A DNA stretch of 24,322 nucleotides. It comes from a virus. The stretch covers positions 1 to 24,322 of the IMG/VR virus record IMGVR_UViG_3300045999_005937. One strand, written 5' to 3'. Under the pieces are notes generated by a model. The model saw only the letters and a program-made list of their open reading frames with translations, did no database searches and was not told the DNA's origin. Both the position numbers and the translations under genes were made by a program. This document shows, piece after piece, positions 181 through 12,499 of the stretch (its first letter is position 1; every line of letters starts with the position of its first letter).

Positions 181-310
181 TACATTCGCGCGAGCGTACG
201 CCTGCGCGTTTCCTTTTACCTTGAGCGAACCGAGTGCATGGAATGATAAGCACCGTTGATGGATCAACCCCTTGACGGATCGCACTGATCCGGGCCATGC
301 TTTGCTCATC

Positions 311-530: not shown

Positions 531-591
531 TGTAACTAAGGGCAAAGTAGTTCTTACTCCCTGGTGTGGCGATTGCCTCGCCTTAGTTACA
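531..591. repeat. Inverted repeat of TGTAACTAAGG
   Basis: TGTAACTAAGG at 531-541 is matched by its exact reverse complement CCTTAGTTACA at 581-591, enclosing 39 bp. A smaller hairpin, GGCGA/TCGCC, lies just inside the right arm. The arm sequence recurs at 716-725, 802-810, 940-948, 1484-1492 and 5709-5718, so this is a dispersed element and not a single chance palindrome. Confidence 0.75.
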
Positions 592-715
592 GTTAGCTGT
601 TTAATATCAGCATCGTCAGAATACGGACGTAGGGCGCGAGAGATCCCCGAGCACAATAGAGTTGCAACCCGACTCGCTAGGTGTGCACGATGCGAATGTC
701 AGCAGGTATCTTGTC

Positions 716-810
716 TGTAACTAAGACAATGTATCGACGCTAAATGTCAGCAACTCTCGTCAGGTTGCAGCTGAATACAACTACATGCTGTCCGCTTGTA
801 GTTAGTTACA
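716..810. repeat. TGTAACTAA / TTAGTTACA inverted pair
   Basis: TGTAACTAAG (716-725) faces TTAGTTACA (802-810). It is the second inverted pair built from the same nonamer as the 531-591 pair. Direct repeats of AATGTCAGCA occur between and beside them (about 695 and 743). Confidence 0.6.
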
Positions 811-953
811 GTGCACAAGCTGTGTCCAGCGTAACTGTCTATGGTGCAGGTACGCTGGACAAACTACCTAAGCTTCACCACGGCGTGTCCCGTGCGATGG
901 CAGCGCAGGATTTTATAGTTTGTGTGCACAACTGTGCTCTGTAACTAACTACA
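797..953. repeat. 15-bp perfect inverted repeat, imperfectly extended
   Basis: TGTAGTTAGTTACAG at 797-811 has its exact reverse complement at 939-953. Beyond the perfect part, similarity continues inward (GTGCACAAGCTGTG against the inverted CACAACTGTGC), giving an imperfect dyad of roughly 27 bp per arm. The arms contain the TTAGTTACA nonamer. Confidence 0.75.
824..860. repeat. 10-bp perfect hairpin
   Basis: GTCCAGCGTA (824-833) and TACGCTGGAC (851-860) are exact reverse complements with a 17-nt loop. The hairpin is nested inside the larger 797-953 dyad, giving a structured block upstream of the first gene. Confidence 0.75.
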
Positions 954-1160
954 TACAGCTATTTAGTTTTAGTCAGTGAGCTCAGCTTCTAGTTGAGCGG
1001 ATCCATGTATCAGCTAGCGCATTGTCGCTTGGTAGGTATCAGGATCAAGTTAGATCATTTGTGATCACAGGCTGTAGATTCTCTCCTCAAGCTTCACAGT
1101 TTGATGAGGGATTCACTCCCTCTTTGTTGTTAGCTACCAGCCATGTAGCTGGTGAATGTT

Positions 1161-1478: not shown

Positions 1479-1483
1479 CTAAC

Positions 1484-1512
1484 TGTAACTAACCCAACGC
1501 AATCTGATCATG
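1484..1512 (+). promoter_or_regulatory. Shared leader: CTAACCCAA to TGATCATG
   Basis: The bases before the gene at 1510 read TGTAACTAACCCAACGCAATC followed within a few bases by the start. Near-copies lie before the starts at 1714 and 2125: CTAACCCAAT, a short C/G-rich spacer, then the ATG. The three leaders share sequence although the genes do not, so they look like a duplicated gene-start module, perhaps for translation or transcript processing. Confidence 0.5.
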
Positions 1513-5123: not shown

Positions 5124-5471
5124 ATGACACAACAACATCCCATCACCCCACCGCGGGAGCTAGTGAAGCAGTGGATCAAAGAGTGTGACCAGCCAGACAA
5201 TCCGCGCTGGCAGGAATACGAGCAAGACATCGCCAACCGCACCGCCCAATGGGCCGCCGACCAGGAGCTGGAGGCGTGTTGTGAGTGGCTGATACTGAAT
5301 GGTTACGGAGCAGCCACCAGCAGACTCCGCACGGCCCGCCGCCCCAAGCCGCCGAGCTTGAAGGAGCTGGCGCTTGACGATTTGCGCATTGCTTTTGATA
5401 GGGGCTGTTTAAGCGGAATACAGGCTGACACCATCCGCCGCGCCCTTGAACAACTAGCCGACGACAAATGA
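5124..5471 (+). CDS. Synechococcus-type small protein (ELEACCEWL...ARRPKPPS)
   Basis: This 115-residue protein has ITPPRELVKQW, AAQW-like WAADQELEACCEWL, RTARRPKPPSLKELAL and a final DTIRRALEQLADDK. I recall this order of blocks, tryptophan/cysteine helix, then RRPKPPSLKE, then TIRRALE, from uncharacterised proteins of Synechococcus and their phages. No activity is known to me. Its base composition is clearly more GC-rich than its neighbours (GCCCGCCGCCCCAAGCCGCC region), which suggests recent arrival from a GC-rich host genome. Stop and next start overlap as ATGA. Confidence 0.7.
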   Translation: MTQQHPITPPRELVKQWIKECDQPDNPRWQEYEQDIANRTAQWAADQELEACCEWLILNGYGAATSRLRTARRPKPPSLKELALDDLRIAFDRGCLSGIQADTIRRALEQLADDK

Positions 5472-5716
5472 AACGCGCAGAACTAATCGATCTGTACGCT
5501 GACATCACCGTAAGCTCAATGGATTACAGCGAGCTCGAAATGTTTGTGTACAACGCAATCGCAGAACAACTCGAAAAGACGGACAAAGACGATCTGATCG
5601 ACAGGTTCTACAAAGACATTTGTATGAGCGACCCGAAAGATCTATGGGACATCGGGCGCACAGTCTTAACTAAAGAGGAAGTCGAATCGTATTTGGCTTC
5701 GAAACAATGTAACTAA
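5468..5716 (+). CDS. Acidic hypothetical protein, 82 residues
   Basis: The start ATG overlaps the stop of the previous gene (ATGA), which indicates translational coupling. The product is acidic and helical (MKRAELIDLYADITVSSMDY, FVYNAIAEQLEKTDKDDLI, then LTKEEVESYLASKQ). Its stop lies inside a TGTAACTAAG element (5709-5718), the same sequence that is repeated in the left region. No function recognised. Confidence 0.6.
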   Translation: MKRAELIDLYADITVSSMDYSELEMFVYNAIAEQLEKTDKDDLIDRFYKDICMSDPKDLWDIGRTVLTKEEVESYLASKQCN

Positions 5717-8353: not shown

Positions 8354-9550
8354 ATGAACCACTACCTTCTGTCCTGCTCCATCTCTGCGGACGTTCGCCA
8401 ATCAGTTCAGATCAAGTTCGACGACCTTAAACTTCCTCAACAGGTTATCGACACACTCGAAGCCAACAACACTGTCAGTATCCGCCCGCACCTATCAAAT
8501 GCGCTGAAGGGTAAACTCGATGCGCTTCGTGTAAAGCAGCGTCAGCTGTACGATGCTTACTGCATCCATTATGGTGATGCTCACTTTGTAACCGCTTCTT
8601 ACTTCCAGGAAGCAAACGCGATGATCAAAGAGATCAAACGTGATGCTGAGGTTTACAACGCAGAACTTAAAGATCTGTGGGAGAGCGAGTACACTCGTTG
8701 GCAAGAAACAGCTAACGGTATTCTTCGCCCGCTGTTCTCTGAAGACATCGAATACTCCATCGCATTCGATGCGTACATGCGGTTCTTCCCCACGCGGGAA
8801 GAATATCGGAAACCGATTCGCGTCTCCGTTCTGGGTCCACTTCCCGTCTCGCTGCAGAAAGTAGAGGCTCCCATTGAGGGAGACATTGATTCCGTTCTTG
8901 CTTACGAGAATGCAATCAACACCCAACAAGTTTTAGAGGCGGCCAAAGCTTCTGCATCTGATAAAGCCCTGACACTCGGTGCACAACTGCTGGACGATCT
9001 GGACGTACGAAACGTAACTAAGATCGGACGTCAACAAACAGGTTCGGAAAAGAAACGCGGCAGCTGGCAAATCACTGCAGAGAAACTCAAGCTCATCAGC
9101 AACAGCGTTCCTACGTTCAGCGATCTGGCTGTGTTGGCTGATCGTCTGCTGCAATCAGGGAACAATTTACAATCCCCTGACCGTGGCGTGCGCACGAAAG
9201 CAGTAGAAGACTTCTACGCAGTACAGGAAGAAATCCGCACGGAGCTCTCTAGCATCTGTAACAGCCACAGCAACTCGCAGGGTCTCGAAAAGCTGCAGCA
9301 CTCTCTTGCACTCAGCTCTGAGTACAAACTGCTGTGTGAAAAGATCAAGACGGTTGAAAGTGCTAATGCTCTCAACCTTTTGGTCAAAGACGCCAACACC
9401 GAGATCGACATTTACGAACAACGGTCAAAACAGCTCCGTAAGCTCATCGCTCAACGCCGTGAACTTATCCAAGCTGCAGGCGAAAACCTTGACGAACTTA
9501 TCGAAGACATCAATGCACAACCTGAACAACAGTCGGAGGCTGACTTCTGA
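8354..9550 (+). CDS. Unknown 398-residue protein of the MoxR/VWA unit
   Basis: The first gene of a four-gene coupled unit. The protein is mostly helical. Residues about 60-120 form charged helices (MIKEIKRDAEVYNAELKDLW), residues 125-180 a Phe/Tyr-rich stretch (YSIAFDAYMRFFPTREEYRK), and the C-terminal half has long heptad-like helices (IYEQRSKQLRKLIAQRRELI). The end is acidic and finishes ADF. In phages and plasmids, helical proteins of this kind (for example DUF3150-type) are found beside AAA+/VWA pairs; I cannot assign it to that family with certainty. A likely role is adaptor or substrate of the ATPase. Its stop overlaps the next start as TGATG. Confidence 0.8.
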   Translation: MNHYLLSCSISADVRQSVQIKFDDLKLPQQVIDTLEANNTVSIRPHLSNALKGKLDALRVKQRQLYDAYCIHYGDAHFVTASYFQEANAMIKEIKRDAEVYNAELKDLWESEYTRWQETANGILRPLFSEDIEYSIAFDAYMRFFPTREEYRKPIRVSVLGPLPVSLQKVEAPIEGDIDSVLAYENAINTQQVLEAAKASASDKALTLGAQLLDDLDVRNVTKIGRQQTGSEKKRGSWQITAEKLKLISNSVPTFSDLAVLADRLLQSGNNLQSPDRGVRTKAVEDFYAVQEEIRTELSSICNSHSNSQGLEKLQHSLALSSEYKLLCEKIKTVESANALNLLVKDANTEIDIYEQRSKQLRKLIAQRRELIQAAGENLDELIEDINAQPEQQSEADF

Positions 9551-9759
9551 TGGACAGAAAAGTTTATGTGTTCAAGACACACAACGGCTACTTGTCCGAC
9601 ATTGATCATTACACGCACGATGCAGCACGAGCAGTATCGTTCGTCGATCTTGACTCAGCGGTCACACGTCTGGCTGCAGTCAGTGGGGTAATCAACCAAC
9701 CGATCTCAATCGAAGAAGTTTCACTTCCATTCCCTCTTCCTTTTCCTAAGCAAATCTGA
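9550..9759 (+). CDS. Small protein between adaptor and ATPase genes
   Basis: A 69-residue protein starting MDRKVYVFKTHNGYLSDIDH, with DAARAVSFVDLDSAVTRLAA in the middle and a Pro-rich end (VSLPFPLPFPKQI). Both of its ends overlap neighbours as TGATG, so it is translationally locked into the MoxR/VWA unit, and GGAG about ten bases before its ATG may help initiation. The fold looks like strand-helix-strand. The function is unknown, but the fixed position implies that it works with the ATPase. Confidence 0.7.
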   Translation: MDRKVYVFKTHNGYLSDIDHYTHDAARAVSFVDLDSAVTRLAAVSGVINQPISIEEVSLPFPLPFPKQI

Positions 9760-10946
9760 TGAACGACCAACTCTTCGGCAAACTTCAAAACTTCCGTGGG
9801 GCACTCAACGCTGCCACGCTCGAACGCGAGCACGTTATCGACGGTCTGCTCGCCTCCGTTATCTCAAAACAGAACGCCTTCTTGCTGGGTGCTCCGGGTA
9901 CAGGCAAGAGTGATCTGGTTCGCAGTGTATGTAAAGGTATCAAGGGCGCCAATTACTTTGGTTACCTCCTGACACCTACGACTGATCCCAGCGAATTGTT
10001 TGGTCCCGTCGCAGTCACCAAACTACTTAAAGATGAGTACACACGCGATGTAGACGGTTACCTACCGTCCGCACACATTGGTTTCCTAGACGAACTGTTC
10101 CGCAGCTCATCGGCAATCCTTAACTCTCTTTTGTCGCTGCTGAACGAGCGGACGTTCAACAACGGTAACCAAGTGATCGAAACTCCCTTGCAGTCGATCA
10201 TTGCTGCAACAAACAGCTGGCCGCAAGAGGAGTCACTTCAGGCTTTCGCGGACCGCTTCTTGTTCCGCCCAACAGTAGAGATGCTGAAGAAACCAGTATC
10301 CAAACGGACACTGGATGAGTGGGCGCTGGGCATCGAAGATCGCCCGCAGGTTGGCGAGTTTCTGACACTTTCCGAACTGAAAGAGATTCAGGAAGCTGCG
10401 AAGAAGGTCAAAGTATCCGATGACTTTCTAGACAAGTTCAACTCAGTGTGGCAGATGCTCGCACAACGGAGCATCACGATCTCTGACCGCCGACGTGTTC
10501 AGATTCTTAAATTCCTCCGAGCATGGGCAATTGTCCAGGGCGATGAGGAGCTGTACCCTGAGCACATGCACAATAGTCTTGTACACATTGTGTACAACGA
10601 TCTAGAAGATCAAAGCACTATCATCGAGATTCTGGAGCAGGAAGTTCCCACGGCTGAGCGGTTGTTTGCTGATGCGAAGCGAGCGGCAAGCGGAATCATG
10701 ACCGAGTTTGCAGCACTACGCTCCAGACAGCAGCAGAACAGCATCGGCTCCCTTAACGATCTCGTCGTTCATCTCCGTAAATACCATAAGGATATGAACA
10801 CGGTCAGGGACAAAGTAGATGAGCTTCTTGATGGATCTCGCATTCGTATGAGCATGGCTGTCAGATCCAGAGCCGTTAAGCTCTCTCAAAACCTTCAGAA
10901 CAACTGCGACACAATCGCTCAAGCCCTCAACGAAATCACTCACTAA
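9759..10946 (+). CDS. RavA/MoxR-type AAA+ ATPase
   Basis: A 395-residue AAA+ ATPase. Walker A is GAPGTGKS (residues 44-51), Walker B is FLDE with Asp111-Glu112, and sensor 1 is Asn152 in AATNSW. The blocks ELFGPVAV, GYLPSAHIGFLDE, AILNSLLSLLNERTFNNG and ALADR-like FADRFLFR match E. coli RavA (EVFGP, GYLPEAEIVFLDE, AILNTLLTAINER, LYDRMLIR). RavA works as a hexameric remodelling ATPase with the VWA protein ViaA, whose counterpart is the next gene. A CobS-type porphyrin chelatase reading is less likely. It starts in a TGATG overlap and ends two bases before the VWA gene. The C-terminal third is a long helical region (about 230-395). Confidence 0.85.
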   Translation: MNDQLFGKLQNFRGALNAATLEREHVIDGLLASVISKQNAFLLGAPGTGKSDLVRSVCKGIKGANYFGYLLTPTTDPSELFGPVAVTKLLKDEYTRDVDGYLPSAHIGFLDELFRSSSAILNSLLSLLNERTFNNGNQVIETPLQSIIAATNSWPQEESLQAFADRFLFRPTVEMLKKPVSKRTLDEWALGIEDRPQVGEFLTLSELKEIQEAAKKVKVSDDFLDKFNSVWQMLAQRSITISDRRRVQILKFLRAWAIVQGDEELYPEHMHNSLVHIVYNDLEDQSTIIEILEQEVPTAERLFADAKRAASGIMTEFAALRSRQQQNSIGSLNDLVVHLRKYHKDMNTVRDKVDELLDGSRIRMSMAVRSRAVKLSQNLQNNCDTIAQALNEITH

Positions 10947-10948
10947 CC

Positions 10949-12499
10949 ATGAATCTCCAGAAGAACTCTGAGTTTGTTCGTCTTGTAAATAACGAGCCGC
11001 TAACCCTAGTGTGCTCCGCTCTCGCAGACTTCCTTTGGGAAGATTTTGTCCGCGACACAAAGCCTAACGTTACCTATCTCGTTAACACTTACAACATCAA
11101 ACAACTCTCTAGGTTCGGTAAGGAGGTATTCGAGCGTTTATACAGTGCTGACGAAGTTAAGTGGCTAATCAGCGACGAAGACTTCGAGCAATACTTCAGG
11201 GCAATCTGTAACGGTGATACAACTAAAACACCTAAGGGCTACAAACCGGAGAACGCTGTCTGGTATTCGATCATGGGAGATCTTTCCCAGGCTGCTGCGT
11301 GGCCCACGCTGATCCAACGCTGCGTGGGCGAGCAGTTCAACTCCGGGAACAATGCAGTGCGCATCCTCAACGAAATCTCAAAAGTGATTGAGGAAGCAAT
11401 CCAGCAGAACATGTTCGATGTTCAGCTGCTGGTGGGCTCCGGTGATCAATTGCAGGAGCTCCGGGACCAGTACAACAAAGCTGTACAGAACGGAGACAAG
11501 GCTGCAGCGAACGAAGCTCGGATGCAGGGTAAGGAGTTGGGGCAGCGTATTCACGACGCGCTGCAGAATGTGAAGTCTCAAGTACAAGCAGAAGCGAACA
11601 CGATCGTCGATAAAGTTCTCGGCGAGAGTGACGAACAGAACGAAGATATCAGCAACCTGTTCGGCTCGATGCCCGGTAACGGAAAGATGCTGAGTGACCT
11701 ACAGGAAAAGAGGAATCTCGCTAACCGCTTGAGCAGGAACAGAACACTCAAGCAGATTGCTAAGAAACTCGGTGCTTTACGCCGGGTATGGACTGAGAGG
11801 AAACGAGCCAAGCCTGCGAAAGCTAACTACGAAGCGGTAACAGGTGCGAAGTTCAGTGACAGCGTGATCAACGCCTTCCCCACGGAGCTTGCGCTGGCTG
11901 GCTCGAAGGAAGGTCAAGCCCTGTTTGCTCTCAAGTATTCGCAGAAAACGATCCTCACCAAAGACTACACAGCATCCAGAACGGACTTGGGGCGCGGTCC
12001 TGTAATCATGTACGTCGATGTGTCGGGGTCGATGCACGGAGATCTGGAGCTTTGGAGCAAGGCAATTGCCTTAGTTATCTCTGAGCAGGCGCTGACTGAC
12101 AAGCGCTCTGTGCACATCCATCTGTTTGATACGGTTGTGGGTCACAGTGTTGAGGTAAAAAGTGGCACACCAAATACAAAGGAACTGATTGACTTCGTTG
12201 CGGGATGGACGCTGGGTGGGGGCACAAGCTTCAACGCCGTGCTAGCCCACGTGGTGAGTCAGAAGGAGAACTTGAAAAATTCCGACATTCTGGTTCTCAC
12301 CGACGGGAATTCGGAGGCAAGCCCCACTTGGATTTCCAGGGTAGACAGTTTGAAGCAGGAAACCGGCGCACAGATAACTACAGTTTGTCTGGATATGTCT
12401 GTGCCTGAAGTTTGCAAACGGTTCAGCGATGAGACTTACTCTGTAGACACATCGAATAACATCGATTCAATCGATGTAATTCAAAAGTGTATCCGATGA
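10949..12499 (+). CDS. ViaA-type von Willebrand A protein
   Basis: A 516-residue protein with an N-terminal helical region and a C-terminal VWA domain from about residue 345. The metal-ion-dependent adhesion site is complete: Asp357-x-Ser359-x-Ser361 in MYVDVSGSMHG, Thr426 in GGGTSF, and Asp452 in VLTDGNSE. The stretch WSKAIALVISEQALTDKRSV then HIHLFDT parallels ViaA (AKAFCLALMRIALAENR, then IMLFST). The middle has charged, Gln-rich helices (residues about 170-240) likely to form a coiled coil. In the known pair the VWA protein regulates and targets the RavA ATPase. Here it is the last gene of the coupled unit, and it ends just before a strong AAGGAG ribosome site of a new gene. Confidence 0.85.
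   Translation: MNLQKNSEFVRLVNNEPLTLVCSALADFLWEDFVRDTKPNVTYLVNTYNIKQLSRFGKEVFERLYSADEVKWLISDEDFEQYFRAICNGDTTKTPKGYKPENAVWYSIMGDLSQAAAWPTLIQRCVGEQFNSGNNAVRILNEISKVIEEAIQQNMFDVQLLVGSGDQLQELRDQYNKAVQNGDKAAANEARMQGKELGQRIHDALQNVKSQVQAEANTIVDKVLGESDEQNEDISNLFGSMPGNGKMLSDLQEKRNLANRLSRNRTLKQIAKKLGALRRVWTERKRAKPAKANYEAVTGAKFSDSVINAFPTELALAGSKEGQALFALKYSQKTILTKDYTASRTDLGRGPVIMYVDVSGSMHGDLELWSKAIALVISEQALTDKRSVHIHLFDTVVGHSVEVKSGTPNTKELIDFVAGWTLGGGTSFNAVLAHVVSQKENLKNSDILVLTDGNSEASPTWISRVDSLKQETGAQITTVCLDMSVPEVCKRFSDETYSVDTSNNIDSIDVIQKCIR

Follow-up and report, generated by a model that had tools for sequence, protein, structure and literature searches.

The switch logic considered here is known from ribosome-mediated attenuators of the trp type, whose overlapping RNA segments, lying next to a translated stop codon, form alternative hairpins that exclude each other. 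In phage T7, the hairpins processed by RNase III separate early genes that precede the gene of the phage RNA polymerase. Among phage RNAs of other kinds, the put RNA of HK022 acts on RNA polymerase and is not known to do so by alternative pairing, and GOLLD and ROOL are long multi-domain RNAs associated with phages. The manA, wcaG, PhotoRC-II and glutamine cis-regulatory RNAs are structured leader RNAs of cyanophages (PMC2864571; PMC9964418). They precede metabolic or photosynthesis genes, and none of them was matched here in Rfam scans.

The window analysed here (the whole stretch of DNA, 24.3 kb, a virus record) contains a cluster of nonamer repeats and, further downstream, a small RNA element. 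The reading towards which we lean is that a leader RNA carrying nonamer arms ends in this two-state element ahead of the first early gene, and that the element serves elsewhere as an intergenic module. The element resembles trp-type attenuators in having overlapping segments, one of which has two mutually exclusive pairings, and in many copies the stop codon of an ORF lies next to them. The stop codon of an attenuator, however, is that of a leader peptide, whereas segment 1 of the element usually lies at the stop of an ordinary upstream gene; in addition, the element occurs in tandem copies within one phage, has a weak U tract, and its effect on expression is predicted. It shares with the T7 early-region RNase III sites the placement of hairpins between early genes ahead of a phage RNA polymerase gene, but differs in its fixed flanking sequence and in a third, competing segment. 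The leader of the window, compared with the put RNA by description only, is likewise a folded RNA that precedes early genes of a phage. It is similar to GOLLD and ROOL in being a long multi-domain phage-associated RNA, with no Rfam match to the leader; unlike in those RNAs, a gene leader follows here at a fixed distance.

Scanning 12 sources against Rfam 15 at gathering cut-offs returned only tRNAs, and with E values up to 5 the matches in positions 1–1700 of the window fell only within the low-complexity stretch 47–259, with none in the leader. The literature searched, which included few subscription papers, gave no description of either RNA. We know of no precedent for anchoring at stop codons, for use in tandem or for occurrence in different phages.

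The genes of the window include a DNA polymerase, a primase, an exonuclease, a MoxR-kind ATPase and an HNH endonuclease (the MoxR assignment is our own reading). In its first 8 kb, only one gene, found in the Synechococcus phages S-CBS2 and S-RIP1, resembles named phages at the DNA level, and the nearest relatives of its DNA polymerase are those of Pseudanabaena phages, at <30% identity; from this similarity and this kinship, a cyanobacterial host is likely. BLAST searches of the leader, one element copy and two other loci against named phages found nothing relevant. The first early gene, at 1152–1478 on the plus strand, has relatives at 85–99% identity in 7 contigs.

Sequence, pairing and distribution of the two-state element

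The element of the window occupies positions 1077–1126 of the plus strand, with segment 1 at 1080–1085, a hairpin at 1087–1104, segment 2 at 1106–1111 and segment 3 at 1117–1122. It scores 59.8 bits against our model R1, which was built with an identical copy (L055) among its members. The consensus is GAUUCUCUCC-[variable hairpin]-UGAGGGAUUC-CCCUC. Searching viral contigs for the exact pattern GATTCTCTCC-N(8–36)-TGAGGGATTC gave 86 stretches, with 0 for the backwards control. The same pattern was found in 8 stretches of a cellular collection of 257 billion bases, and the one of these searched with the model, a Prochlorococcus single-cell contig (L206), carries two element copies. With the model, at E values up to 1, the set grew to 151 matches from 99 sources, several contigs having 2–5 copies; 150 of these, including weak ones to E 0.8, constitute set A4, in which L023:647, L202:10573, L078:52 and L075:1445 appear doubtful. 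Copies from related phages are not independent.

The stem of the hairpin varies widely in sequence yet remains paired, with a covariation of 0.511 as against 0.140 for shuffled alignments (0/500 reach the observed value); the search pattern fixes the two 10-nt arms, not the hairpin. Furthermore, G-U cells outnumber A-C cells in the variable stem, by 86 to 9, and by 38 to 6 in model A3 (56 of the 81 unique exact copies, chosen by hairpin length).

Segment 2 (GAGGGA) is able to pair with segment 1 (UCUCUC) or with segment 3 (UCCCUC), not with both at once, and the 1:2 pairing is stacked on the variable hairpin. All six pairs of the 1:2 helix are kept in 131 of 137 unique copies, and at least five Watson-Crick pairs of the 2:3 helix in 133 of 137. 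In some variants both partners of segment 2 have changed along with it: GCUGGA occurs with UCCAGC and CCAGCA, GAUGUA with UAUAUC and UACAUC, and GAAGGA with UCUUUC and either UCCUUC or CCUUC. In a swap test on 132 copies (those with gaps in the segments being left out), the 33 copies with a changed segment 2 scored 5.67 with their own segment 3, compared with a mean of 4.27 and a highest value of 4.82 in 2000 swaps. Moreover, a search for the GAAGGA type that fixed only segments 1 and 2 yielded 8 copies in 7 new contigs, and the predicted segment 3, UCCUUC, was present in 8/8. By computed energy the two states are close, with a median difference of 0.2 kcal/mol and 132 of 133 copies within 4; this near equality is partly due to the conservation of the segments themselves.

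Of the 136 copies examined for a preceding gene (6 of 142 had <190 nt of upstream sequence and were left out), 84 are fused to the stop codon of an upstream ORF with ≥50 open codons, TGA starting one base before the element in 66, TAG two bases before in 17 and TAA three bases before in 1; at offsets from −60 to +39 no other position exceeds 4 copies. The next ATG usually lies 14–44 nt past the end of the model. At the element of the window there is a TAG (1075–1077), with no ORF of ≥50 open codons ending there. The same holds for most first copies in the phage group of the window, where no ORF ends at the element and several have TC in place of TA or TG before it. Comparison of the copies demonstrates both pairings, their joint covariation, the fusion with stop codons and the sense-strand bias, and the predicted structure is well supported for the element, as it is for the leader domain described below. 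Read-through of the stop codon into the next gene was considered and rejected, the hairpin lengths not being multiples of three.

Element copies, frequently arranged in tandem, separate small early genes from one another. BLAST groups the flanking ORFs, which are small, into 67 families; among the 72 of 182 scanned are some that match antirestriction proteins (ArdA), SSB and a DNA methyltransferase. Phage RNA polymerases make up two of the ten large proteins that were scanned, and some of these phages are therefore T7-like. Among cultured phages, the element is present in Cyanophage 9515-10a, P-SSP10, P-SSP6, P-SCSP-R27W and NATL2A-133 (the last at only 25.8 bits), all of them Tangaroavirus isolates with Prochlorococcus hosts; since the five were picked by similarity to one element-bearing locus, 5/5 is not a rate for the genus. 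In 9515-10a the element lies five genes ahead of the small early genes that neighbour the RNA polymerase gene. It was absent from the sequences examined of P-SSP7, Syn5, S-RIP1, S-CBS1 and S-CBS3 and from 24 kb of S-CBS2.

Integron attC sites have core boxes with GTT and AAC at their two ends. Neither was seen in the arms of the 56 aligned element copies, where the arms are fixed by the search pattern, nor, by reading, in the variants found with the model.

Nonamer arms and a probable long folded leader

The sequence-only reading had pointed to a cluster of inverted nonamers in alternating orientation upstream of the early genes, and this cluster is real. Exact copies of TGTAACTAA are found at 531 (+), 583 (−), 716 (+), 802 (−), 940 (+), 1484 (+) and 5708 (+), so that five of the earlier positions stand and two, given as 582 and 5709, move by one base. 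Seven copies compare with 0.12 expected from dinucleotide shuffles (0/100 reach 7); five of them are packed into 418 bp (531–948), with alternating orientation, and all seven fall within the first 5.7 kb of the window, so the frequency along the genome is not equal. In 17 loci, the window included, which are related and hence not independent, there are 39 copies in 11,050 nt of leader as against 26 in 225,025 nt elsewhere. The inverted pairs proposed at 11 and 15 bp are at least that long, 531/583 forming a 12-bp stem by sequence pairing (530–541/581–592, within 530–592 of the plus strand) and 802/940 one of 15 bp; extended to 21 nt, the arms are 86% and 95% complementary. In relatives that share the first gene the arrangement is found complete or in part, with arms at matching distances 5′ of that gene. 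The repeats form a region of regulatory type, conserved in position, ahead of the early genes, and in this the sequence-only reading was right.

The 802/940 pair (797–811/939–953) closes an RNA domain of ∼160 nt, domain D (796–954, plus strand), which was aligned over 23 loci between the two arms. Its predicted structure comprises the closing stem and two hairpins with 40 pairs in total, 92.4% of the cells being paired. The perfect 10-bp hairpin noted earlier at 824–860 lies inside domain D, as part of a larger hairpin at 823–861 (plus strand) with 93% complementary arms (823–837/847–861). Covariation within domain D was 0.362, compared with 0.159 after shuffling (0/500 reach it) and at most 0.080 when the structure was slid. 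Since the core of the closing stem hardly varies, it is the outer pairs that provide the evidence of compensatory change in that stem. Built from the 23 loci, with the window among them, model R2 scores the window at 141 bits in the sense of the genes, compared with 42 for the opposite strand. Outside the model it matches L197, L195, L015 and L068 at 2e-15 to 2e-9; domain D is kept in at least 27 loci.

On the gene-sense strand, G-U cells exceed A-C cells in domain D, and when the minus strand is folded the plus-strand G-U cells (52) still exceed those of the minus strand (39); the RNAalifold energy is slightly lower for the minus strand (−88.5 vs −82.9 for the plus). The fixed distance between the arms, the compensatory outer pairs and the sense-strand excess of G-U together indicate a folded transcript. 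Judging from the alignments, the nonamers are probably arms that pair within a long folded RNA, the 5′ leader of the early operon.

The extent of this leader may be placed at 309–1076 of the plus strand from folding z scores and from compensatory helices in relatives. The fold of 480–1155 has a z of −7.2 (−6.6 for the other strand), and further helices with compensatory changes in relatives reach back to ∼780 nt 5′ of the element, these being weaker evidence since they were chosen by energy. The folded region, of ∼750 nt, lies behind a promoter-like site, TTGACG-N18-CATGCT (272–301, plus strand), and ahead of the first early gene. By reading, TTGACN occurs at this upstream edge in 24 of 30 loci, most with TACCTT as the second box, which is weak in the window. 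Transcription would presumably begin at this site, and the large leader RNA may have a role. In L009, a small HNH-like ORF (9367–9732, minus strand; family by sequence reading) is inserted within the folded leader domain.

A large non-coding RNA that stands by itself, has its own 3′ end and precedes the element only by chance is another reading of the folded region, one that seems doubtful to us: the many helices over ∼750 nt and the retention of domain D in at least 27 loci would suit such an RNA, but relatives keep a fixed position ahead of the element, and between the folded region and the element no terminator rises above chance.

The other nonamers are of several kinds. The 716 copy forms the loop of a small hairpin, TTGTC/GACAA (711–729, plus strand), which is also a consensus helix in one group of relatives. 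Pairing of 716 with 802 (7–10 bp) was rejected in favour of 802/940 because it lacks support from outer pairs; an exchange of partners involving 716/802 is possible. The 1484 copy lies between ORFs in an intergenic linker repeat (1479–1504, plus strand), recognised by repeat comparison and found also at 1677 and 2093. Repeats of this CTAACTGTAACTAACCCAATC-like kind follow the stop codons of small early genes at 1479, 1677, 2093 and 3954 of the window and may be boundary sequences for gene exchange. The copy at 5708–5716 (plus strand) lies outside the structure and is the end of an ORF (5468–5716; TGT AAC TAA). As a general viral feature the inverted nonamer pair was discarded, since nearly all of 99 stretches proved on inspection to be AT-rich chance or coding matches; L019, L021, L036, L052, L120 and L166 were kept. 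In L007, the second element copy (1599–1670) has a variable stem made of nonamer arms (TGTAGCTA/TTAGTTACA).

A candidate switch and its rivals

The element may be an unrecognised gene switch, its state depending on whether segment 1 is free. A ribosome at a stop codon covers about the next dozen bases, and as segment 1 usually begins at the preceding stop, a ribosome finishing the upstream gene would cover segment 1 and favour the 2:3 hairpin. This hairpin, followed by a U-rich stretch, would most likely alter transcription or translation of the next gene, the candidate effects being an end of transcription, a pause or exposure of the next start codon. Both the ribosome as sensor and the direction of the effect are what we infer from the arrangement of the sequences. 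After segment 3, U makes up 42–56% at six positions with no strong run (108 copies, after removal of those whose sequence or 2:3 helix was too short), so that a classical terminator is unlikely in all copies; a terminator scan of the window gave no more than shuffles did. No ORF ends at the element of the window, hence a terminating ribosome cannot be the sensor there; where an upstream gene would otherwise lie, the window has the long RNA. A similar choice of partners would be open to the nonamer arms of this RNA, one of which sits in the loop of the 716 hairpin, but outer pairs back only 802/940.

More tentatively, the element could represent a class, so far undescribed, of stop-anchored intergenic switches, reusable across unrelated cyanophages, that read the upstream ribosome and tune an operon gene by gene, one lineage having placed a ∼750-nt RNA with exchangeable nonamer arms ahead. 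If so, a whole early operon would be tuned gene by gene in hosts that, to our knowledge, have no Rho. The early genes of cyanophages decide the takeover of the host in the most abundant photosynthetic cells, but little is known of how they are controlled; the structured RNAs of phages would gain a new family in the large leader RNA. As the element is carried by cultured Prochlorococcus phages, sensing of ribosomes at stop codons is directly testable.

An unlikely account is translation coupling, in which the 1:2 or the 2:3 state hides or frees the next start region after termination at the fused stop, with transcription unaffected. The stop-codon fusion itself, a start codon usually 14–44 nt past the model end and the weak U tract are all consistent with it; in the copies read by eye, however, segment 3 has no consistent complement near the start codon.

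We think it quite unlikely that the element is a site of RNA processing or stability, at which a host RNase would cut the hairpin and so split early transcripts into single-gene mRNAs. Such a cut site needs neither a third segment covarying with the second nor anchoring at a stop codon, even though tandem copies between early genes ahead of a phage RNA polymerase, in T7-like contigs, and a hairpin of variable stem are what processing would lead one to expect.

That the nonamers are DNA sites for a repressor, a sigma factor or an initiator, as in the operator array or origin of the sequence-only reading, is very improbable, for although their core hardly varies and occurs repeatedly in either orientation, the outer pairs covary, the G-U bias lies on one strand, the pairing distance is fixed and the 17 loci have no sign change of GC skew across the region (right side negative in 16, left side in 14, the left part of the window being only 177 nt). 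The same pairing distance, outer pairs and strand bias point to a folded transcript rather than to the boundaries of a small inserted element, which had also been suggested. A protein may recognise the near-invariant nonamer, as RNA or as DNA.

Two further features of the window were noted. Its MoxR-kind ATPase adjoins a protein that by eye is VWA-like (9759–12499), an unusual combination for a phage. A long tract of alternating purines and pyrimidines (GTGCGC) lies at 103–184, 5′ of the promoter-like site, and is also seen in several relatives, for example at 9180–9260 of L011.
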